DNA from: a virus
Length of the DNA stretch: 23,926 nt
Reading direction: 5' to 3' (one strand)
IMG/VR virus record: IMGVR_UViG_3300032294_002087
Span: 1-23,926 of that record
In this document: piece by piece, positions 450 to 23,745 of the stretch
How the letters are laid out: the number at the start of each line of letters is the position of its first letter
Position numbering within the stretch: the first letter of the stretch is position 1
The notes under the pieces: model-generated
Told to the model about the DNA's origin: nothing
The model's database searches: none
The model's input: only the letters and a program-made list of their open reading frames with translations
Made by a program: the position numbers and the translations under genes

Positions 450-2987
450 ATGGCCAATGTTGAACTGTTTAATGTTTTGGGTGGATATAGCGTAGGCATA
501 CCGCCTAAAGTTGCTATTGATAATAGTGGTAATTTAGTAACAAATGTTAATGCACCAAACAGTAATGTCACTGCTAACCGTGTATTTGCAAATAGTTATT
601 TGTATGCCAACGGCGACCCATTAAGTATCGGGGCTGGTGGCTCAAACACACAAGTACAATATAATAACAACGGACTTTTGGGTGCAAGTTCAGCATTTAC
701 TTTTAATAGCACTACTAGTTTAGTAACTGTAAGTAAACTACAAGTCAGTAATAGTGCTAATTTAGGCAATGTTAGTAATATAATTATACTAGGTGGAAAT
801 AACGGATATTTCCTACAAACAGACGGTGAAGGCAATCTAACTTGGGCACCAGGTAGTGGCGGAAATGGTGGAAATGGTAGTCCAGGTGGAGCAAATAGTC
901 AAGTACAGTTCAATGATGCAGGAAGTTTTGGCGGTGATGCAGGATTCACTTATAACAAAGTCAGTAATACTCTTAGTATTGCAAATAATATAGCTGCTGG
1001 TAATGCTATTACCGGTGTGAATTTAGCAGTAACAGATGCTACGATCTATAACACATTATCAGTAACAGATGTCATAGCATCAAACATCACACTAACAGCC
1101 AACATAACAAGTGCTAACTGGATCAATTCTAATTATTTTGCAGGTAATGGACATAATCTATTTGGCTTAGTGGGCGCCAATGTCACAGGTCAAGTAGGAT
1201 TTGCAGCAGTAGCAAACAGTGTAGCAGGCGCTAATGTCACGGGTCAAGTAGCATTCGCTAATGTCGCCAACAATGTAGCGGGTGCAAATGTTACTGGACA
1301 AGTAGCAAATGCACTTGTTGCTGGTACAGTTTACACAAACGCACAACCAAACATCACTAGTGTTGGTAATCTAACAAGTCTAACAGTTGTTGGCAATACT
1401 ACATTAGGCAATCAAGTTGTTTCAAATTATTTTATAGGTAATCTGTTTGGATTAGCAAATCTTGCTAGAAATGTAACCTATGCAGCACAGCCAAATATCA
1501 CTAGCGTTGGTACACTAACATCATTGACTGTAAGTGGTAATACAACACTAGGAAATACGGTTACAGCAAATTACTTTGTAGGAAATCTATATGGTGTTGC
1601 GAATAGTGCAATCATAGCCAACACTGCTAACTTAGCAAACAATGCTAATAGAGCAAATCTAGCAAACGCAGCCGTTGTTGCAGGCACTGTTACCGTAAAT
1701 GCACAGCCAAATATCACTACTGTAGGTACATTGACATCATTAAATGTAAATGGTTTATCTAATTTAGGTAGTATATCAAATATAACTATAACAGGTGGTA
1801 GCCCAAATTATGTACTAAGCACAGACGGTGTTGGTAATTTAAGTTGGGTAGAACAATCTAGTGGTAATACAGTTGTCCCGGGTGGATTGAACACATATGT
1901 TCAATTCAACGATGGTAACACATTTGGCGGAGACAACGCATTTACATGGAACAAGACTACGAACTATTTGTTTGTTGGCGGAAATGCAAATTTTGCAGGA
2001 ATGGTAAATGCACAAACACTTACTTCTAATGTAAGCACAGGCACACCACCATTACAAGTCATCAGTACTACCCCTGTAGCGAACTTGTCAGTAGAAACAG
2101 CAAATACAGTTAGGGGTAACATTCAACCAAACATCACTAGTGTTGGTAACCTGACAAATTTAGTAGTTGTCGGTAACATAGAAACTAGCAACTTATCGGT
2201 TAGCAACAATTTTGGTGTCACAGGCAACCTATCTTGCGGAAACTTAAGTACACCAGGTTCTGTAAACAGTACACGACTTGCTGTTACTGGTAATGCTAAC
2301 CTAAATGGTAGCACAGTTATAGGTACAACGGGCAATTTAATAGTCAATGGCACACTAAACGCATCTAACTCTGCCAATGTCAATTTAGGAAATGTAAGTA
2401 ATCTTCACATTTCGGGTGGATTAAATGGATATGTATTAACTACTGATGGAGCAGGTAACTTAAGTTGGAGCGTAGGCGGAAGCGGCGGCAATGGTAGTCC
2501 TGGCGGTAGCAATACACAAATTCAATACAATAACAACGGCATATTTGATGGTAGTGCATTTTTAACATTCAACAACACTACCAACACTTTGAGTGTTGCA
2601 GGAAACCTAATAGCCAATAGTTTTACTATGGGTTCAGGTGTATTTCAATTTAGTCAAAGCAGGGTATTCGCCGCAACAACAAATACTGACATACCAAATC
2701 AAACTTTGATTGCTATTGAAGCTGATGATTTAGCAGCAATAGACTTTACTATTATTTCAACTTCTGGGAACATACGAAATTTCGTGAAAATCTCAGCAGT
2801 TGTTTGTGATGAGCAGGTAAATTATGTGGAATACAGCAATTTACCAATAAATGGGTACATAGGAGATTATCAGGTGGTATATGACACGGGAAATGTAATA
2901 GTTCCATCAACTGTAAAACTATTAGTTTCACCGAATTCTGCCAATTTTACGGCACATAAAATGTCCATAACCACATATATTTCCTAA
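450..2987 (+). CDS. Repeat-built tail fibre / adhesin-like protein 1 (845 aa)
   Basis: Predicted virion fibre, low-complexity and rich in Asn, Gly, Thr, Ser and Val. It is assembled from three recurring modules. Type A is LGNVSNIxIxGG..GYxLxTDGxGNLxW (three copies). Type B is SNTQVQYNNNG..G..xFTFNxxTNxLSV (four copies, usually after a Gly-rich linker such as GNGSPGG). Type C is AQPNITSVGTLTSLTVxGN (four copies). About 110 C-terminal residues, from roughly residue 730, are not repetitive and may form the tip that contacts the host or caps the shaft. No signal peptide or membrane segment is seen. The ATG at 450 follows a weak TAGGGT. The gene begins a run of three fibre genes. Such repeats are typical of fibres of marine T4-like phages; the exact position in the virion cannot be told. 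Confidence 0.85.
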   Translation: MANVELFNVLGGYSVGIPPKVAIDNSGNLVTNVNAPNSNVTANRVFANSYLYANGDPLSIGAGGSNTQVQYNNNGLLGASSAFTFNSTTSLVTVSKLQVSNSANLGNVSNIIILGGNNGYFLQTDGEGNLTWAPGSGGNGGNGSPGGANSQVQFNDAGSFGGDAGFTYNKVSNTLSIANNIAAGNAITGVNLAVTDATIYNTLSVTDVIASNITLTANITSANWINSNYFAGNGHNLFGLVGANVTGQVGFAAVANSVAGANVTGQVAFANVANNVAGANVTGQVANALVAGTVYTNAQPNITSVGNLTSLTVVGNTTLGNQVVSNYFIGNLFGLANLARNVTYAAQPNITSVGTLTSLTVSGNTTLGNTVTANYFVGNLYGVANSAIIANTANLANNANRANLANAAVVAGTVTVNAQPNITTVGTLTSLNVNGLSNLGSISNITITGGSPNYVLSTDGVGNLSWVEQSSGNTVVPGGLNTYVQFNDGNTFGGDNAFTWNKTTNYLFVGGNANFAGMVNAQTLTSNVSTGTPPLQVISTTPVANLSVETANTVRGNIQPNITSVGNLTNLVVVGNIETSNLSVSNNFGVTGNLSCGNLSTPGSVNSTRLAVTGNANLNGSTVIGTTGNLIVNGTLNASNSANVNLGNVSNLHISGGLNGYVLTTDGAGNLSWSVGGSGGNGSPGGSNTQIQYNNNGIFDGSAFLTFNNTTNTLSVAGNLIANSFTMGSGVFQFSQSRVFAATTNTDIPNQTLIAIEADDLAAIDFTIISTSGNIRNFVKISAVVCDEQVNYVEYSNLPINGYIGDYQVVYDTGNVIVPSTVKLLVSPNSANFTAHKMSITTYIS

Positions 2988-2992
2988 TAAAT

Positions 2993-3000
2993 GATAAATA
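2993..3000 (+). promoter_or_regulatory. T4-late-like promoter box GATAAATA upstream of fibre gene 2
   Basis: GATAAATA lies in the 38-nt gap between fibre genes 1 and 2 and ends 26 nt before the ATG at 3026. A GGAGA Shine-Dalgarno site (3013-3017) sits between box and start. This would give fibre gene 2 its own late transcript with a short leader. Confidence 0.5.
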
Positions 3001-3025
3001 AATTTACAAATCGGAGACTATTCAC

Positions 3026-6000
3026 ATGGCACTAAAACCACTTAATTCAGTTGGCGGTTTCTCAGTAGGCGAAACCCCGAGTAATGTAATCGACGCAAAT
3101 CTTAATTTTACAGGTAACACTGCAAACTTTACCGGTAACTTAATATCTGTAAACGCAAATCTAGGTAACCTTGCATTAGCAAACTTTGTTAATGTTTCGT
3201 CAAATCTTAATGTTACTAACACATTGGCAGCAGGCAATGTCCGCACAGACAACCTATTATATGCTAATGGTAGTCCATGGGATTTACAACAACCTGCAGG
3301 CAGCAACACACAAGTACAATTTAACAACAATAATGATTTTGGTGCCAGTGCGAATTTCACATTCGACTCTACGAGCAATACATTATCAGTATTGGGTAAT
3401 GCTAATGTAACCACATTAAACACTGGAAATATCAATACTGGAACTAGCAGCCTAACACTTACTGCTAATGGTCAGTCAACAGTATTCAATGCTAACGGTG
3501 TTGTTGCTTTCCCAGCAAATGTAAGTGCACCAAACTTCATTGGTAATGTCGTAGGTAACATAAGCGGTAATATCACTGCTCCTGGTTCTAACACAAACAT
3601 CATATACAATGACGGTAACTTATTAGCAGGAAGCAATGCATTCTCGTTCAGTAATGCAACTAACACAGTCTCTATATCAAATGCATTGAGTGTCACAGGT
3701 AATATCACATCAGGTAATGCGAATCTTGGTAATTTGGCTATTGCAAACTTTGTACAGGGTACATTGACAACTGCTGCACAGCCAAATGTCACTAGTGTAG
3801 GCATATTGACAGGACTAAGCGTAGATGGTTCAAACATCACATTAGCAAATGGTGTTTATGTTGGCAATGGTGCAGGACTAACAAATCTTGCAGGTGCTAA
3901 TGTCACAGGTACTGTAGCAAATGCAACACATGCAAGCACAGCAAATACAGTAACAGATGCGGCACAACCAAACATCACCAGTGTCGGTACATTGACTTCA
4001 CTAACAGTAACTGGCAATGCAAGTGCAGGTAACTTAAGTACCGGAGGCGCATTAAGCGTAACGGGAAATGCTAATGTTGGTAATCTTGGCGCAACAGGCG
4101 TTGTAGCAACTACATTAGGCGGAACATTAACGACAGCAGCACAACCAAATATCACAAGTGTTGGTACATTAACTGGTTTAGGCGTAAACGGCAATATTAC
4201 TGCTGCTAATATCACAGCAAATACAGGCGTATTTACAGGTAATGGTAGTGGCTTGACTGCACTAAACGCAAGTAACATTTCAAGTGGTACATTAGCTCAA
4301 GCAAGATTGGCCAACTCAAATGTTATATTAGGTAATACAGCATTGACACTTGGTGCAACAGTAACAACAGTAACTGGTTTATCAAGCGTTACATCAACTA
4401 CATTTGTTGGTGCATTGACTGGGGCTGCTACAACAGCAGGTACAGTAACTACTAACGCACAGCCAAATATCACTAGCGTTGGTACATTAACAAGCGTAAC
4501 TGTTTCCGGTAATGCTAATGTAGGTAATCTAAATTCAGGTAACGGTAATTTTACCGGTGATTTGACTGTTTTAGGTAATGCTAATATCGGCAACGGTGCA
4601 GGCGGTACTATTTCTGGTGCTAACTTAGTAAGTGCTAATTTCTTAGCAGGTACACTAACAACAGCAGCAAGCGCACAGCCAAATATCACCAGTGTTGGTA
4701 CATTGTCATCATTGGCAGTTACCGGCAATGTGACAGCAGGCAATTTTGTAGGTATCTTTGCTAACGGCAATTCAAACATCGCTATTCCTAGTGCTAACGG
4801 CAACATCAACATCTCAGCAGGTGGAACACCAAACGAACTAGTAATCACAAGTACTGGTATCAATGTTGCAGGTACATTGAATGCAACAGGTAATGCTAAT
4901 GTTGGTAATTTGGGCGCAGCACAGGTACTAGCAAGTGCTAATGTCACTGCTCCTCAGTTGATATCAAATGTCACAACAGGTACTGCTCCGTTCGTAGTCA
5001 CATCAACTACGCAAGTTGCAAACTTGAATGTTGCTGTTGCAGGTACTGCAGGAACAGTCACAACTGCCGCACAACCAAACATCACTAGCGTTGGTACATT
5101 GTCATCACTAACTGTATCAGGTAACGCAACTGCTGGCAATGTCTATGCAAATAGCGGCACAATCGGTGCTTCATTATTAGCAGGTACATTGACTACTGCT
5201 GCTCAACCAAATATCACTAGTGTTGGTACACTAAGTTCATTAAGTGTTACTGGTAACGCTAATGTTGGTAACATTGGTGCAGCAAACGGTGTATTCACAA
5301 ATGTAAGCGGTAACGGTAGCGCGTTGAGTTCATTGACAGGTGCTAATGTCACTGGTCAAGTTGGCAACGCATTGGTTGCTGGCACTGTGTACACAAATGC
5401 ACAGCCAAATATCACTAGTGTTGGTACACTATCAAATGTAGATGTAACAGGTAATGGTATATTTGGCAATGTTTATGCTAATGCCGGTACTATCGCTGCA
5501 CTAACACTAAAGGGTGAAGGTGGAAACATCAGCAATATTACAGCAGGTAATATTACTGGTCAAGTAGCAAATGCACTTGTTGCTGGTACAGTATATACTA
5601 ATGCACAACCAAACATCACAAGTGTCGGTACATTAACTGATCTAACTGTAAGCGGAAACGCAAGTGCAGGTAATCTAAGCACAGGCGGAAACTTATCTGT
5701 AACAAGTAATGCTAATATCGGTACCCTAAATACAAGTGCAATTAATTCTGGAACTAGCAACTTAATAGTTACTGTAAACGGCAATGCCGTAAACTTCTAT
5801 GCTAACGGATTAACTGCATTTACTGGAAATGTAAGTGCACCAACATTCATTGGTAATGTTCAGGGTAACATAAGTGGTAACATCACTGCTCCTGGCTCTA
5901 ATACAAACATCATATTTAATGATGCAAATTTATTGGCAGGAAGTAATGCGTTTACATTCAACAAAACAAGCAACTTGTTGTCAGTTACTGGCAATATCAG

Positions 6001-8389
6001 TGCAGAAAATGCAAACTTAGGTAATTTGGTCACTGCGAACTTCTTCGCAGGCACACTAACAACAGCAGCACAACCAAATATCACAAGTGTTGGTACATTG
6101 ACATCACTTGATGTTACTGGCAACATTTCTACTGCTGCAAATATTGTTACAAACCGTGTAGTAGGAAATACAACAGGTGTAACTATTGAAGCAGTAGGCG
6201 TTGACCAAGACATCGAACTAAAACCAACCGGTAACGGTACGGTTGATGTTTGGAACAAGATTATCAGCAATGTTGCTACTCCAATAGCAAGCACTGATGC
6301 AGCAACTAAGGGTTATGTTGACGCAGCGGTTGAAGGTCTGCACATACATGCACCTTGCGCAGCAGCAACACCAAATACTCTTGCTGTATTGTCAGGTGGT
6401 ACTGTTACATATAACAACGGTACAGCAGGCGTAGGTGCAAATCTTGTAACTACTGGTAGTTATACAACTATTGACAGTGTAAACATTGCTAATGTCGGTA
6501 CAAGAATTCTTGTCAAGAACGAAGCAAACGCAGCACATAATGGTATCTATGTATATACGAGCAGCACAGTTCTAACAAGAGCAACTGACTTCGATACGCC
6601 AACAGAAATGGCTGGTGGTGATTTCACATTTGTCAGTGCAGGTACATTATATAATGATACTGGTTGGGTGATGACTGATCCAGTAACTACTGTTGGCACA
6701 AGTCCAGTTACTTGGTATCAATTTAGTGGTGCTGGTACTTATACAGCAGGTACAGGACTAACACTAAACGGTACTGAGTTCAGCATCAGCAATACTACTG
6801 TAACAGCAGGTGCATATGGTAATGGCGACTATGTTGCTACATTTACTGTAAATGCTCAGGGTCAGTTGACAGCAGCAGCAAATACAGCAATTACTGCTAA
6901 TGCTGCTAACCTAAGCGGTACTGCTCTAAACGCAAACATTGTCACATCAAACTTGACAACTGTTGGTACACTAGGTTCATTGTCTGTAACAGGTAATGCA
7001 ACTGCAGGTAATGTCTATGCAAATAGCGGCACAATTGGTGCAAGTCTATTGGCTGGTACATTGACTACTGCTGCACAGCCAAATATTACTAGCGTTGGTA
7101 ACCTAAGTTCACTAAATGTTACTGGTAATGTTGTAGCAGCCAACTTCGTAGGCGTACTAGCAAATGGCAACAGCAATGTAAACATTCCTGCTGCTAATGG
7201 TAATGTCAACATAAGTGCTGTTGGTAATGCTAATGTTCTAGTTGTCACAGGCACCGGTGTCAATGTTGCAGGTACATTGAATGCAACAGGTAATGTCACA
7301 GTAGGTAATCTAACAACAGCAGGTAGCGGTGGTAACATCACAGGTGCTAATGTTGTAAGTGCAAATACATTCTTAGGTAATCTACAAGGCATACTTGCAA
7401 ATGGTACTAGTAATGTAAGCATACCGGCTGTTAACGGCAATATCAATCTAAGTGCAGCAGGAAATGCTAATATTCTAGTTGTATCTGGTACCGGAGTGAA
7501 TGTTGCAGGTACATTGAATGCAACAGGCAATGCTAATGTTAATAACTTAGGTGTAGGTAACTCAATCACTGCAACAGGCAATGTCAGTGGCGGCAATCTA
7601 TCAACTGGTGGAACATTAAGTGTAACTGGTAATGCTAATGTTGGTAATTTGGGCGCAGCACAGGTACTAGCAAGTGCTAATGTTACTGCTCCTCAGTTCA
7701 TATCAAATGTTGCTAACGGTACTGCTCCATTAACAGTATTGTCATCAACATTGGTAGCAAACTTGAATGCTGACTTACTAGATGGTTACAATACTGCAAT
7801 TGCAAATACTGCAAATACTGTTGTAGTTCGTGATGCAAACGGCAATGTCAGTGCAAATTACTTTACAGGTAATGGTGCGTTCCTGACAGGTATTGACACA
7901 TCATTGATTGCTAACGGAAACAGCAATGTATCTGTAATAGCAAATGGTAATGTGACTGTAAGCATTACTGGTACTGCAAACACAGCAGTGTTTAGTACTA
8001 GCGGACTAAACCTATCAGGTAATTTACTAGCAAATGTTGTCAAGGCAAACAGTCAAGTACAAGTTGGAAATACGCAGGTTCGTTGGGCTGAAGTAACAAC
8101 ATCAGCCATCACATCAAATCAGGCTATCTCAACTGTATCAGTAACAGGCATAACTGGTGTTGAATGGTTAGTTAAGGGTGTTGACTCATCTGGCGGTAAG
8201 TACAGTGTTGCTACTGTAACTGCTGTGACAAATGGAACAACAGTGGACTATTCAATATTTGGCGCAGTCAATATCGGTAGCACAACGGGTACACTTGCTG
8301 TAAACATATCAGGTGGAAACATTGAGTTGCAAGTAACACCTTCAAGTATTGCTTCAACTGTTTGGGTAACTCAGTACAGAACTATATAA
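3026..8389 (+). CDS. Giant repeat-built tail fibre / adhesin-like protein 2 (1787 aa)
   Basis: Largest protein of the window and a predicted virion fibre. It holds about twelve copies of the type C module ([25 protein letters not shown] and variants), three type B modules (GSNTQVQFNNNN... and GSNTNIIxND...), and copies of an ANGNSNVxIPxxNGN..ISA unit. Residues about 1092-1257 form a different domain starting DAATKGYVDAAVEG and containing RILVKNEANAAHNGIYVY and TRATDFD, a segment type found in many phage side-tail fibres. A later LLDGYNTAIANTANTVVVRD unit is another common fibre motif. The last roughly 80 residues are non-repetitive and probably form the tip. The start follows a GGAGA site with 8-nt spacing. 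Copies share exact stretches of DNA, so recent duplication or gene conversion is likely. A fibre role is well supported by style; receptor and location are unknown. Confidence 0.87.
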   Translation: MALKPLNSVGGFSVGETPSNVIDANLNFTGNTANFTGNLISVNANLGNLALANFVNVSSNLNVTNTLAAGNVRTDNLLYANGSPWDLQQPAGSNTQVQFNNNNDFGASANFTFDSTSNTLSVLGNANVTTLNTGNINTGTSSLTLTANGQSTVFNANGVVAFPANVSAPNFIGNVVGNISGNITAPGSNTNIIYNDGNLLAGSNAFSFSNATNTVSISNALSVTGNITSGNANLGNLAIANFVQGTLTTAAQPNVTSVGILTGLSVDGSNITLANGVYVGNGAGLTNLAGANVTGTVANATHASTANTVTDAAQPNITSVGTLTSLTVTGNASAGNLSTGGALSVTGNANVGNLGATGVVATTLGGTLTTAAQPNITSVGTLTGLGVNGNITAANITANTGVFTGNGSGLTALNASNISSGTLAQARLANSNVILGNTALTLGATVTTVTGLSSVTSTTFVGALTGAATTAGTVTTNAQPNITSVGTLTSVTVSGNANVGNLNSGNGNFTGDLTVLGNANIGNGAGGTISGANLVSANFLAGTLTTAASAQPNITSVGTLSSLAVTGNVTAGNFVGIFANGNSNIAIPSANGNINISAGGTPNELVITSTGINVAGTLNATGNANVGNLGAAQVLASANVTAPQLISNVTTGTAPFVVTSTTQVANLNVAVAGTAGTVTTAAQPNITSVGTLSSLTVSGNATAGNVYANSGTIGASLLAGTLTTAAQPNITSVGTLSSLSVTGNANVGNIGAANGVFTNVSGNGSALSSLTGANVTGQVGNALVAGTVYTNAQPNITSVGTLSNVDVTGNGIFGNVYANAGTIAALTLKGEGGNISNITAGNITGQVANALVAGTVYTNAQPNITSVGTLTDLTVSGNASAGNLSTGGNLSVTSNANIGTLNTSAINSGTSNLIVTVNGNAVNFYANGLTAFTGNVSAPTFIGNVQGNISGNITAPGSNTNIIFNDANLLAGSNAFTFNKTSNLLSVTGNISAENANLGNLVTANFFAGTLTTAAQPNITSVGTLTSLDVTGNISTAANIVTNRVVGNTTGVTIEAVGVDQDIELKPTGNGTVDVWNKIISNVATPIASTDAATKGYVDAAVEGLHIHAPCAAATPNTLAVLSGGTVTYNNGTAGVGANLVTTGSYTTIDSVNIANVGTRILVKNEANAAHNGIYVYTSSTVLTRATDFDTPTEMAGGDFTFVSAGTLYNDTGWVMTDPVTTVGTSPVTWYQFSGAGTYTAGTGLTLNGTEFSISNTTVTAGAYGNGDYVATFTVNAQGQLTAAANTAITANAANLSGTALNANIVTSNLTTVGTLGSLSVTGNATAGNVYANSGTIGASLLAGTLTTAAQPNITSVGNLSSLNVTGNVVAANFVGVLANGNSNVNIPAANGNVNISAVGNANVLVVTGTGVNVAGTLNATGNVTVGNLTTAGSGGNITGANVVSANTFLGNLQGILANGTSNVSIPAVNGNINLSAAGNANILVVSGTGVNVAGTLNATGNANVNNLGVGNSITATGNVSGGNLSTGGTLSVTGNANVGNLGAAQVLASANVTAPQFISNVANGTAPLTVLSSTLVANLNADLLDGYNTAIANTANTVVVRDANGNVSANYFTGNGAFLTGIDTSLIANGNSNVSVIANGNVTVSITGTANTAVFSTSGLNLSGNLLANVVKANSQVQVGNTQVRWAEVTTSAITSNQAISTVSVTGITGVEWLVKGVDSSGGKYSVATVTAVTNGTTVDYSIFGAVNIGSTTGTLAVNISGGNIELQVTPSSIASTVWVTQYRTI
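4889..7683 (+). repeat. Exact 56-bp direct repeat inside fibre gene 2
   Basis: The 56 bp at 4889-4944 recur identically at 7628-7683, encoding a GNANVGNLGAAQVLASANV segment, and similarity continues on the 3' side with synonymous differences. The coordinates given span both copies. Exact identity at third codon positions points to recent duplication or conversion rather than protein-level selection alone. Confidence 0.85.
6299..6800 (+). other. Side-tail-fibre type domain (ATKGYVDA segment) inside fibre 2
   Basis: The region encodes ATKGYVDAAVEGLHIHAP, then RILVKNEANAAHNGIYVY, TRATDFDTPTEMAGGDFTF and TYTAGTGLTLNGTEFSISN. The order of ATKGYVDA, a VLVKN..NGIY element, TRATDFD and an AGTGLTL end is a recurring arrangement in phage tail fibres. 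It interrupts the type C repeats on both sides, so it behaves as an embedded module. Family recognition is from memory of such fibres. Confidence 0.65.
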
Positions 8390-8410
8390 TTTGTATTGCT
8401 GTAAATAAAA

Positions 8411-8442
8411 ATTCCATAGCAGGCTAAAATCTGCTATGGAAT
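8411..8442. terminator. Perfect 12-bp stem-loop after fibre gene 2
   Basis: ATTCCATAGCAG (8411-8422), an 8-nt loop, then CTGCTATGGAAT (8431-8442) form a perfect 12-bp stem 21 nt after the stop of fibre gene 2. On the plus strand it is followed by ACTTAAAATC, a poor U tract. On the minus strand it is followed by TTTTTATTT. It may stabilise or end the fibre 2 mRNA, or stop antisense transcription. No other intergenic hairpin of comparable length was seen. Confidence 0.6.
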
Positions 8443-8484
8443 ACTTAAAATCTATATGTTTTCATATTATATGGGAACAAATAG

Positions 8485-8492
8485 CATAAATA
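8485..8492 (+). promoter_or_regulatory. T4-late-like promoter box CATAAATA upstream of fibre gene 3
   Basis: CATAAATA ends 26 nt before the GTG start at 8518, the same spacing as the box before fibre gene 2. It lies after the stem-loop at 8411-8442, consistent with a separate late transcript for fibre gene 3. Confidence 0.48.
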
Positions 8493-8517
8493 TATATAAG
8501 CAATAGGTATATAATCT

Positions 8518-12723
<4,206 letters not shown>

Positions 12724-18133: not shown

Positions 18134-18412
18134 ATGGCGGGAAAAAAACTCAGTAGAAAAGGCGACAAAAACAGCGAAGCCGGACAAATTGTTCGCGGTG
18201 CTGAAACGGTATTTTGTAATGGGATAGCCGTGGGTCTGCATGTAAGTGAAATAACAAAGCACAGGCCCAACAAAAATAAACATAAAGCAGCCAAAACTAC
18301 TGAGGGAAGTCCAACTGTATTTGCTGAAGGTGAACCTGTGTTAAGAGTCACTACCAATACTACATGCGGTCATACAATAGTTGAAGGTAGTGACAATGTA
18401 TTTGTCCCATAA
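18134..18412 (+). CDS. PAAR-domain spike-tip protein
   Basis: A 92-aa PAAR protein. It has the expected strand-turn series: a polar start, RGAETVFCNGIAVG, a loop with several His (GLHVSEITKHRP, KNKHKAAK), TEGSPTVFAEGEPVLRV and the ending CGHTIVEGSDNVFV. His25-type and Cys-Gly-His residues would bind the metal ion at the apex. In phages such as T4 (gp5.4) a PAAR protein caps the spike that pierces the outer membrane, which implies a contractile tail. It lies 4 nt after the Sm-like gene and ends 2 nt before the Hint protein gene. The loop between the two half-motifs is longer than in minimal PAAR proteins. The fold is well supported; position in the virion follows from the family. Confidence 0.86.
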   Translation: MAGKKLSRKGDKNSEAGQIVRGAETVFCNGIAVGLHVSEITKHRPNKNKHKAAKTTEGSPTVFAEGEPVLRVTTNTTCGHTIVEGSDNVFVP

Positions 18413-18414
18413 TT

Positions 18415-20313
18415 ATGTCAAACACAGGTAAACAAAGTCCACTAGGTGTAAATGTTTTGGGTTCTCTGTTGCAGAACACGGGATTTTACATCAATCCTAC
18501 AGCACAAAGTTATATGGGCGTCAGCAAAAAAACTGACGGTGACTATCAATCAGGCAAAATTGTAAATGATACCTGCTTAAAATTCATAACAAATGCAATA
18601 CAAAATGCGTATGTTAGGGGAGCAGCAAGTCAAACCGACCCTGTTACACCCACAGGAACATATACTGTAGATAGTGAGACTTATAACAATTTATTAAATA
18701 TAGGACAAAGTAGAATACCTGCTTTGGGTAATAGCCCGCCGCCCACATATGAAACTACTGACCCTAGCGGCGTATGGACAAATAAACATCAAGAATTTTA
18801 TAAAAACGCACAAGCAGGTGCACCTGCAAATGCCGGATATGGATTTTATAGTTGGGACGCACCGGAATATAACAATCTTACCAACAAACAAGAAGCATAT
18901 AAAAATGAGGGACAATGTGCAAGTTGGTATCCCTTTTTAGCAACTGTTGAAGACCCTGACAATCCAGGCAATTATTTAGAAGTGCCAAACAGAAACATAA
19001 CACAGTGGGGCTGGATACGGTGTATGGCATTGCAGGCATATAATGAATTCAACTTCAATGGGGAAACAGTTGAACAATTGAATAATTCGCCTGTGGGTTC
19101 ACCCGAATATAAAGATTTCGTTGATAGTTTTATGACAGCAGACGGCTTTGTAAATTTCAGTAATCAAGCCATATATGCAATAGAAGACAGCCAAAATTTC
19201 TTAAAAGGTACATATAGTAATCAAAATGATTTGATATCAGCGGATATAGCAGGTGTATCATTATCAAGTAAGGCTTTTGGACAAGATTTATTAAATTTAG
19301 GAAAAGCAATTGATTTGAGACATATTAAGACTTTTGGATTACCTTCTAATTTGTTGCAAACACTTAAAAATAATAATGCATTAACACAATCAGTTATACT
19401 AGCGTTGCTAGCAAGTGAATTAAATCAAAATGAAATTGAAAATATATCTAACGGCAACACGACGCCTACTAAATTACAAGAACAAAAAATATATGGTGCA
19501 TTTTTAGTAATAGCGGGAATTGACCTTAATACTATATTGATTACACTTAATTGCAGAACTAAAGGCATCAATACTTTGGCAGATTTGTTATCTGTGAAAA
19601 AACTTTTCCCACAGAGTTTTACAACATTGACCGTACCTGTTTATAACACAAGTCCTGGACCAACTAATAGTAAAACTTATTATTTGCTCTTCATAAAACA
19701 AGAATTGAATCCGCAACTAGTGACGCCTAAAATTAAGTCAATTGTAGGTACTATAGTACCACCCGCAATCCCACAACCAGTTGAACCTAGCATAATAGTT
19801 CCAACTATCATCGATCCTCCTAATAATATTATTGGTGGAGGCGGATGTGTAGCACTTGAAAGTTATATACCATTAGTCGAACATGAAATCAAACACAATA
19901 ATAGACCTATAACCAATGCATATATGCTTGAATCAAATATGGAATTGAGTTTAGGCACAGATGAACTGAAAATTGTTTCAGGCAAAATAAAAATGGCATT
20001 AAATGATTATCAACCGTGCCTACGAATCGTAACAACAGATGGCATATCATTGGTGTGTTCTACTACTGCACGAATACTTACTAAAGAAAAAGGATACATG
20101 CCTGCAACAGAATTATATGGATTAAGAGTAGCAGTAAGAAGAAACAACAGTGTATGGTATGATGAAGTTATACAACTAGAAGATGTAGGCATGAAATTTG
20201 TAAGAGTAGTAGACGCAGGTGATCATAGTTTTTGGGCAGGCGAAAAACCCGGCTCATACATACTACACCACAATGTACTCATAGACCAAGCATATCAATA
20301 CGCGAAAAACTAA
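18415..20313 (+). CDS. Probable tail structural protein with C-terminal Hint domain (632 aa)
   Basis: A 632-aa protein starting GKQSPLGVNVLGSLLQNTGF, a motif I remember from structural proteins of marine T4-like phages. Residues 1 to about 440 are mixed helix and strand and not recognised further. A Pro-rich linker (VPPAIPQPVEPS, IIDPP) and GGGG lead to Cys478, the first residue of a 155-aa Hint-like domain. Visible landmarks are CVALESYIPLVE, TTDGISLVCSTTARIL, GLRVAV, SFWAG and HHN at residues 618-620. Hint domains cut the peptide bond before their first Cys, so this protein may be processed in the virion. The usual block B T-x-x-H is not seen; TTAR stands there, so activity is uncertain. 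It starts 2 nt after the PAAR gene and ends 1 nt before the next gene, consistent with a spike or baseplate role. Confidence 0.83.
   Translation: MSNTGKQSPLGVNVLGSLLQNTGFYINPTAQSYMGVSKKTDGDYQSGKIVNDTCLKFITNAIQNAYVRGAASQTDPVTPTGTYTVDSETYNNLLNIGQSRIPALGNSPPPTYETTDPSGVWTNKHQEFYKNAQAGAPANAGYGFYSWDAPEYNNLTNKQEAYKNEGQCASWYPFLATVEDPDNPGNYLEVPNRNITQWGWIRCMALQAYNEFNFNGETVEQLNNSPVGSPEYKDFVDSFMTADGFVNFSNQAIYAIEDSQNFLKGTYSNQNDLISADIAGVSLSSKAFGQDLLNLGKAIDLRHIKTFGLPSNLLQTLKNNNALTQSVILALLASELNQNEIENISNGNTTPTKLQEQKIYGAFLVIAGIDLNTILITLNCRTKGINTLADLLSVKKLFPQSFTTLTVPVYNTSPGPTNSKTYYLLFIKQELNPQLVTPKIKSIVGTIVPPAIPQPVEPSIIVPTIIDPPNNIIGGGGCVALESYIPLVEHEIKHNNRPITNAYMLESNMELSLGTDELKIVSGKIKMALNDYQPCLRIVTTDGISLVCSTTARILTKEKGYMPATELYGLRVAVRRNNSVWYDEVIQLEDVGMKFVRVVDAGDHSFWAGEKPGSYILHHNVLIDQAYQYAKN
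19846..20313 (+). other. Hint domain at the C-terminus of the 632-aa protein
   Basis: Begins at Cys478 after a GGGG run and a proline-rich linker. Block A-like CVALESYIPLVE, block B-like TTDGISLVCSTTARIL and a terminal YILHHNV are visible. There is no endonuclease insert, and only 12 residues follow the His-Asn, so this is not a conventional intein splicing two exteins. Processing or attachment at the linker is more likely if it is active. Confidence 0.72.
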
Positions 20314-20314
20314 T

Positions 20315-21832
20315 ATGGCACAAGAACTCAATTTTCAAATACCAAGAGAAGGCTATGACAGTTATTTGTATGGCATAATACCTGACGACCAGGCAGTACT
20401 AGCGGGTGCATTTAGTATTAGTATGCAACAAATCAAAAACATAGACAAAATCAATATTGAAGATTTTGCGAAAGTTGCATATAACATGGAAAGCACAATT
20501 GGGTTGCCACTAACAGCAGGAACAGACATACCAACTGATTTACCATTGTCTACTACTGCAAAAATAAAAACAGCATTAGGCAGCGGTGTATATGGTACCT
20601 ATACTACAAGTAATTTCTTTGGTGCAATGACTGGGTTGCCCTATCCCTGGGTGCAATTGTACACAAAAATACAAGAACTAGAAACACAAACATTGTACGA
20701 CATATATCAAAATTTATATCTAGCAGTGACATGGGAAAAAGCATCAGCAACATATGATGGTGTTTCTTTCACATATACAAATAGAGGGGGAGGCTATGGT
20801 AGAGACAATAGCGGACCTCCTAATGTCACAGTTAACGGTAATGCTGCCACAGCAGTTATAGGTACGGACCCTAATAATTTAGAAACTTTTGGAAAATTAG
20901 TAGAAATAATATACACGGGTTCTGCAGGTCCAGTAGTTATAGATAGTCCAATTGGCATAGACTATGCAGTAGACAATATAGGGTATAACAATATAATACA
21001 GAATTATATAGATGCAGCAAACAATGAGATACAAAATATATCCACATCATCTGCTGAAAATTTTCAAAACAGTAAAATACTTAACACATTGTGGAACATA
21101 ACAGGAATAGCACTTAAGCACGAACAAAGAGCAAGATACAACGGTATAGGTCCCGTATCCGTACCATATGATGATAGATTATCAAATTACCCCACATCTT
21201 TTTATGCCTTTGTAGATAGTATTCCTGATTTTGCTAAAAAGATTGAACCCCATATGACAGCACAAACACTAGAGCATATAAGTGACCTTACTTCACCTGG
21301 TGGTCAAAGCATTGTAGCTATGATGCGTCAAGAAAGAAATCAAGACCGTTTGGCAGAAATAGGCATTGATTTGGATAATAATTTACAAAGTGACCTCAAT
21401 GACAACTTGAAGAAAGAATTGATTGTAAATGGGGTTTTGTGCGGCGCAGTTGAAGGCATAGAATCAGAAAATGGGTGCATCTATACTATACCTGCATGGC
21501 CACAAAATACAGAACCTTATGCATATTATGATTGCACGATAGACGAATTGAGATTGATAACTCAAACTACAACAGGTTCTATAAATCCTCTACTAGATGG
21601 CACTGAATGCCCAATCGTAAATACTACGGTACCGGTTGGGTTTGGTCCTGTTCTTGCGCCCGAAAACTTTATATCAGAAGACGGAAATGTGCCTAATTTT
21701 GCAATAACTATGCCTTTACCAGTCGAACTTGATACTAACTATACAGGAACTACATTATTTCCTAGCACATATAACATAGCAAATGCTATTGATAAAGTCA
21801 TAGAATGCAATTGTGATTGTTGGATAAAATAA
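20315..21832 (+). CDS. Probable phage structural protein (505 aa), unknown
   Basis: A 505-aa protein, 1 nt after the Hint protein gene and so probably translated with it. It starts MAQELNFQIPREGYDSYLYG and has no signal peptide or membrane segment. A Gly-rich stretch (SFTYTNRGGGYGRDNSGP) and a strand-rich middle precede a region with a possible helical part (ALKHEQRARY, MMRQERNQDRLAEIG). The C-terminal 150 residues hold several Cys pairs (LCG, GCIY, YDC, ECP, CNCDCW), ending CNCDCWIK. That Cys-rich end is unusual for a cytoplasmic phage protein and could bind metal or be disulfide-linked in the virion. I do not recognise a family; the neighbours (PAAR and Hint proteins) suggest spike, baseplate or tail. 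Confidence 0.78.
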   Translation: MAQELNFQIPREGYDSYLYGIIPDDQAVLAGAFSISMQQIKNIDKINIEDFAKVAYNMESTIGLPLTAGTDIPTDLPLSTTAKIKTALGSGVYGTYTTSNFFGAMTGLPYPWVQLYTKIQELETQTLYDIYQNLYLAVTWEKASATYDGVSFTYTNRGGGYGRDNSGPPNVTVNGNAATAVIGTDPNNLETFGKLVEIIYTGSAGPVVIDSPIGIDYAVDNIGYNNIIQNYIDAANNEIQNISTSSAENFQNSKILNTLWNITGIALKHEQRARYNGIGPVSVPYDDRLSNYPTSFYAFVDSIPDFAKKIEPHMTAQTLEHISDLTSPGGQSIVAMMRQERNQDRLAEIGIDLDNNLQSDLNDNLKKELIVNGVLCGAVEGIESENGCIYTIPAWPQNTEPYAYYDCTIDELRLITQTTTGSINPLLDGTECPIVNTTVPVGFGPVLAPENFISEDGNVPNFAITMPLPVELDTNYTGTTLFPSTYNIANAIDKVIECNCDCWIK

Positions 21833-23157: not shown

Positions 23158-23745
23158 ATGAAGACAGTAGGATACCAATTGAAGCCATTTTCTATGACTG
23201 GCGTAAAGCCAGGCGTGTTGACACCAGATGATGCGTTTGAAACTATTACTGAAAATAGTTTTGAAGGCAAGTGGAAGGTCATCGTTTTTTATCCAAAAGA
23301 CTTTACTTTTGTATGCCCAACAGAAATCGTTGCATATGACAAGTTGAACAAGGATTTTGCAGACCGTAACGCTGTACTGTTGATCGGTTCAACCGATAAT
23401 GAGTTCTGTAAGTTAGCATGGCGTAATCATCATGAAGATTTGAAGAAGACTAACAGTTGGATGTTTGCTGATACTAGAAGATATAAGGTTACATATAAAA
23501 ATTTAGAGGACTTAGAGGGTACTGTCATTCAAGGTCTTGCAGATCAGTTGGGTGTATTCGAACATAATGCGGGTGCTGCACTAAGAGCAACATTTATTGT
23601 TGACCCAAAGAATGTCATTCAGCATGTTACAGTCAACAACTTGAATGTTGGTCGTAATCCAGAAGAGACATTGCGTATTCTTGATGCATTACAGACAGAA
23701 GAATTGTGCCCATGCAACAGACAGATTGGAGGCGCAACTCTCTAA
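23158..23745 (+). CDS. AhpC-type 2-Cys peroxiredoxin
   Basis: A 195-aa thiol peroxidase that reduces hydrogen peroxide and organic peroxides in the cytoplasm. The peroxidatic Cys53 lies in FYPKDFTFVCPTE, with the expected Pro and Thr (PxxxTxxC). The conserved Arg is in ALRATFIVDP. Resolving cysteines are in ELCPCNRQIGG (Cys184 and Cys186), similar to actinobacterial AhpC enzymes with ELCxCN tails. An extra Cys85 (EFCKLAWR) is also present. A strong AAAGGAG site (23146-23152) precedes the ATG. The codon style matches the surrounding phage genes, suggesting long residence. The reductant is unknown; the nearby glutaredoxin is one candidate. It starts after a 56-nt AT-rich leader with no sure promoter. 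The next gene begins 1 nt after its stop. Confidence 0.96.
   Translation: MKTVGYQLKPFSMTGVKPGVLTPDDAFETITENSFEGKWKVIVFYPKDFTFVCPTEIVAYDKLNKDFADRNAVLLIGSTDNEFCKLAWRNHHEDLKKTNSWMFADTRRYKVTYKNLEDLEGTVIQGLADQLGVFEHNAGAALRATFIVDPKNVIQHVTVNNLNVGRNPEETLRILDALQTEELCPCNRQIGGATL

Follow-up and report, generated by a model that had tools for sequence, protein, structure and literature searches.

The C-terminal domain of a 632-residue protein encoded at positions 18415-20313 of a 23,926-base virus fragment (the window, meaning the whole stretch of DNA that was analysed) is a genuine Hint fold and a member of the HINT superfamily, as judged from a structural model and profile alignment, and sequence comparison places it in a large family for which Pfam, PHROG and NCBIfam hold no model. 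Our preferred reading, to which we give about an even chance, is that the domain belongs to a new family of self-processing modules which baseplate or tail proteins carry as a cassette at the C-terminus, with its catalysis inferred. It draws on the fold and its register, a set of invariant sites, a disordered Gly-rich linker, a lysine in the C-terminal tail and the exchange of the domain as a cassette with its own tail. The chemistry of the family is probably altered, since the first cysteine (Cys1) and the terminal His-Asn pair are kept while the block B histidine of inteins is always lost.

The Hint protein follows a gene for a PAAR-motif spike tip (18134..18412; Pfam PF05488, E 8.7e-12; phrog_281), a neighbour that stands outside the Hint system. 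Its N-terminal body (aa 1-437, 18415..19725) is a conserved family with at least 534 IMG/VR relatives, many of them without Hint, and no PHROG family was found for it. The body leads into a Pro-rich linker ending in GGGG (aa 438-477, 19726..19845), variable in the alignment and predicted to be disordered, with aa 438-476 below pLDDT 50 in the full-length AlphaFold2 model. The Hint domain (aa 478-620, 19846..20274) starts directly after GGGG at Cys478 (19846-19848), the invariant Cys1 of the family alignment, and ends at block G with His619-Asn620 (20269..20274), invariant in 74 distinct copies and in a sample collected by way of the body. In block B, Ser549 (20059..20061), also invariant, takes the place of the Thr of the intein TxxH motif in the alignment of family and inteins, and Ala552 (20068..20070) takes that of the histidine in HMM alignments to the CDC21-1 and gp41-1 inteins. 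The triplet HHN (residues 618-620) is followed by a 12-residue tail (VLIDQAYQYAKN, 20275..20310) and a stop; the tail has a conserved penultimate lysine, Lys631, and is part of the Hint cassette, with which it is swapped. The next gene (20315..21832) encodes 505 aa ending in CNCDCWIK; in some relatives that lack Hint it shares a single ORF with the body. All of these features are on the + strand. Judging by its relatives and neighbours, the window protein is presumably a virion component. Elsewhere in the window, positions 450-12723 hold three fibre-like ORFs of great length that contain numerous copies of a 16-letter repeat type, and the last ORF (8518-12723) has collagen-like GxT repeats and an end resembling an intramolecular chaperone; the translation of 23158-23745 looks peroxiredoxin-like, by eye only, which would be unusual in a phage.

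Used as a lone query, the window protein matched nothing in Pfam, PHROGs, PDB sequences or related loci, so the sequence-only reading, which had called a Hint domain from Cys478 to HHN plus 12 residues, went beyond what standard annotation offers. That call is borne out by profile and structure. A first alignment of five rows was too diverse for use as a search query; a profile of 42 relatives matches the PDB inteins CDC21-1 (E 6e-5) and gp41-1 (4e-4). The modelled domain has a pLDDT of 92.7 (86 in its last block) and aligns with the DnaB, RecA and gp41-1 inteins and with Hedgehog at Z 17.5-19.3 (Foldseek, VIA-align), while the last residues of the full-length model fall below 50, so that tail placement in the models is uncertain. 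Model residue 5, which is Cys478, superposes on intein residue 1. The candidate cut site proposed earlier, directly before Cys478, is rightly placed if the domain does cut. The profile also sets the intein T/S-x-x-H on the family's S-x-[TS]-A, with the TxxH histidine exactly on the Ala; because this alignment and the AlphaFold2 superposition fix the register, the absence of the block B histidine, suspected from the window's S-T-T-A-R, is real. Nearly all relatives read S-x-[TS]-A-P at this site and none has a histidine.

Searches with tblastn found relatives of the domain, in C-terminal position, in isolated phages, namely the Xanthomonas phages PhiXhv-12/15/16, LucasX and XacN1, Erwinia phage Ep032 and Stenotrophomonas phage DLP6; in the four examined (PhiXhv-15, LucasX, XacN1, DLP6) the Hint domain follows unrelated N-terminal parts. 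Scanning IMG/VR at the DNA level for [FY]W[AS]GE-x5-[IVM]-x2-HN returned 96 stretches, from which 94 ORF matches were parsed, and a second pattern restricted to block B, and hence blind to Cys1 and His-Asn, gave 63 matches. An HMM search of all ORFs yielded 107 ORFs, among which are 75 distinct full-length domains; 42 of these stay under 75% identity, and no Hint family of Pfam, PHROG or NCBIfam matched these 42 diverse members. Copies are nearly always C-terminal on phage virion-type proteins, with up to three per genome. Nine contigs of bacterial and archaeal genomes match the pattern, six of them with true members; one of these, in a Burkholderiales bin (L224:2-3826), has the same Hint variant internal to an Rhs-repeat protein, with ~1000 residues after it and the Lys at +2 kept. 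The DLP6 record (L004:1-1655) opens with an unannotated frame of ~550 aa that has a C-terminal Hint. Directly downstream of the intact Hint protein, PhiXhv-15 encodes XYR93252.1 (L107:4423-4842), a free-standing Hint-like protein of 139 aa that has neither Cys1 nor His-Asn and looks like a catalytically dead paralogue. We found no description of C-terminal Hint domains on virion proteins in the literature, in a search covering few subscription papers. The XacN1 paper reports virion mass spectrometry and does not name the Hint protein ORF231 in its text; the LucasX and PhiXhv papers do not mention mass spectrometry.

Cys1, the block B Ser and His-Asn are the only invariant positions among the 42 diverse members, Cys1 being present in every full-length copy, and the column of the missing histidine is nearly always Ala and occasionally Thr (S-x-[TS]-[AT]). 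Synonymous variation at the invariant sites is free, with Cys1 encoded by TGT in 38 copies and TGC in 37 and the serine by TCN in 66 and AGY in 9, among domains ~25-70% identical to that of the window. Cys1 was part of none of the scan patterns, and neither the block B scan nor the body-based one depended on His-Asn, so the constancy of these residues in those two scans is no artefact of pattern choice. Invariance of this kind amid free synonymous variation disfavours a purely structural Hint, one of three fates (cutting the protein, attaching a group to it, structure) between which the sequence-only reading had not chosen. The residue at -1 is Gly in 36 of the 42. At +1, 69 of 74 distinct copies have V, I, M, L, A or K (Val in the window) and the other 5 have S or T, so most members are not expected to splice in the ordinary way. 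Of 42 non-redundant copies, 40 have tails of 5-32 aa and the other two have tails of 62 and 77 aa. In this set all 40 tails of up to 35 residues contain a lysine, against 22.3 expected and a maximum of 33 in 10,000 draws from other genes of the same loci, and 30 have it in the penultimate position, against 4.1 expected, although the tails share common ancestry and the draws overstate their independence. Only 1 of the 74 distinct copies has a tail without Lys.

The proteins that carry the domain are diverse: the window-type body, VrlC/DUF4815 (phrog_358, Pfam PF16075), a gp5-like hub (phrog_13211), phrog_15511 and several others, VrlC being described as an integral part of two-layered baseplates (PMC7029224). 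Partner labels change 12 times on the Hint tree, the starred branches alone forcing at least 4 changes for VrlC, and the module therefore moves between proteins. A natural swap is preserved in two contigs, L033 with Hint and L169 without, with an identity of 97.7% across 2860 bp upstream and of 96.7% across 1230 bp downstream; between these flanks, 523 bp in L033, which run from the end of the linker through Hint and tail into the first codons of the following gene, stand in place of 85 bp in L169. The same exchange of 523 bp for 85 bp separates L033 from the near-identical phage contigs L170, L172, L173 and L174. Hint and tail are thus one dispensable cassette, and since close relatives do without the domain it is unneeded for basic assembly.

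Among the best 80 loci of the at least 534 relatives of the window-type body, a number carry Hint, others stop after the linker, and in 11 distinct loci the body and the homologue of the next gene are fused in one ORF of ~850-1120 aa. An apparent stop exactly at GGGGG, in L188, was merely a contig end. VrlC is a single ORF of 1635-2468 aa in the seven Hint-less phages examined, and is split in most checkable Hint-bearing loci, where the homologue of its C-part starts 14-23 nt after the Hint stop codon; at a few Hint-bearing VrlC loci the next ORF had no match. Hint thus sits at the division points of two unrelated genes. It is not the only cause of the splitting, and that it always marks a gene break is too strong a statement, as some split relatives have no Hint and the gene after gp5-type copies is a different one.

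We argue for chemistry because Cys1 and His-Asn are invariant although the module is mobile, and because it brings along a flexible Gly linker. In the proposed sequence, Cys478 would take over the acyl group of Gly477, holding the flexible GGGG end of the body as a thioester, which hydrolysis or transfer to an amine would then resolve. Cyclisation of Asn620 could free the tail, and the Gly-rich linker would become the end of the mature body, either unattached or coupled to a partner. With Ala in the histidine pocket another assisting group would be needed, and the tail lysine is the best candidate, because a small residue always occupies the pocket and the tail Lys is nearly universal. The reaction may instead be slow or triggered, for example at baseplate assembly or host contact, or C-terminal cleavage may occur alone. 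A more specific version, in which the tail lysine replaces the block B histidine as base or serves as isopeptide acceptor and the module covalently caps or joins baseplate proteins, including at gene splits, is quite unlikely. The block B histidine is dispensable in some inteins (PMC7664689, PMC6333167), and its absence is no bar to membership of the HINT superfamily because a few genuine inteins lack it too. In those of PMC6333167 a compensating residue is reported and the -1 position is a bulky Leu, whereas the phage family has Gly at -1 and a conserved tail Lys; Ssp DnaB precursors with H73A and Gly(-1) are stable and are rescued by bulky -1 residues only (PMC6333167). By analogy, Gly at -1 and the missing histidine argue against plain intein chemistry with a plain N-S shift. 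The Hedgehog C-terminal (Hog) domain resembles the phage domains in fold (1at0, 6tyy, Z ~19), in its Gly-Cys junction and in its place at the protein end; the phage family differs in having His-Asn and in lacking a sterol-binding extension after Hint.

Loss of the histidine together with Gly at -1, a pairing that prevents the N-S shift in Ssp DnaB (PMC6333167), would suit a domain in which only the C-terminal end reacts, Asn620 cyclising to clip the short tail while Cys1 contributes little and Hint remains part of the virion protein. The invariant His-Asn fits this as well, and A-type BIL domains with Asn can cleave at their C-terminal end (PMC7765530), but the invariant Cys1 and the Gly-rich N-flank would go unexplained and a tail merely discarded would have no need of a lysine, and we consider the reading unlikely. 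The BIL domains share the C-terminal His-Asn and occur in variable proteins (PMC7765530), whereas the phage family lacks the block B histidine, is nearly always C-terminal and belongs to phage tail proteins; the likeness to the A-type BIL structure 2lwy (Z 15.9) is a match of fold only. Class 1 mini-inteins (Ssp/Npu DnaB, gp41-1, CDC21-1) have in common with the family the Hint fold over 123-141 aligned residues at an rmsd of ~2 A, Cys1 and a C-terminal His-Asn; the family differs in its block B Ala, in the +1 residue of most members, in the short tail that follows, in its exchange as a C-terminal cassette and in sitting on virion proteins, not at the active sites of enzymes. The intein fold, the His-Asn and the position at gene breaks might suggest an ordinary intein stranded at the end of a broken gene. 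We regard that as the remotest of the readings: most members have no +1 nucleophile, there is no homing endonuclease, and Hint and tail move together between unrelated genes. In the window Val stands at +1 and the 12-residue tail and stop leave no C-extein insertion, while Hint itself is complete and the next ORF, starting MAQELNFQIP..., has no complementary intein fragment. We also dropped the idea of the tail as a C-extein, since tail and Hint are exchanged together. Joining of proteins, in which the thioester of the N-part would pass to an amine on a partner chain (the split C-part or another virion protein) and so restore a covalent link where the gene has been divided, would account for Hint at the breaks of two unrelated genes, each of which relatives encode as one ORF; it is very unlikely, as the next protein starts without Cys, Ser or Thr, and neither the split relatives without Hint nor the different gene after gp5-type copies accord with it.

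The PAAR gene upstream had led the sequence-only reading to a comparison with toxin and effector proteins that use Hint for release, the role of PT-HINT beside PAAR in polymorphic toxins, and the related Hint in the Rhs protein of the bacterial bin points the same way. That analogy is not supported, since PAAR neighbours relatives with and without Hint alike: the gene is upstream in 24 of 24 relatives with Hint, in 22 of 25 split ones without it and in all 15 fused ones without it. Nearly all phage copies, moreover, have no toxin-sized domain or other payload after Hint (just 12 residues in the window), and Pfam PT-HINT matched none of the 42 members at E up to 1. We dropped toxin release as highly improbable. 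Somewhat unlikely, by comparison, is a non-catalytic display domain, in which the Hint fold was co-opted for binding or capping on baseplate proteins and is exchanged as adhesin modules are. The loss of the histidine in every member favours it, as do the dispensability of the cassette and the evidently dead Hint-like protein beside an intact one in PhiXhv-15; against it, the invariant positions are the catalytic ones, Cys1, Ser and His-Asn, and a pure scaffold should let such sites drift, as they have in that paralogue.

The Hint superfamily gains a large family, unmatched by Pfam, PHROGs and NCBIfam, on baseplate-type proteins of T4-like and jumbo phages. The isolated phages XacN1, LucasX, PhiXhv-15 and DLP6 carry it, and the virion proteome of XacN1 is public under PXD008065. 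If the self-processing module is active, it would perform Hint chemistry in the absence of the residue to which a central part in the N-S shift is usually ascribed, and phage tails would have a covalent step of maturation or coupling.
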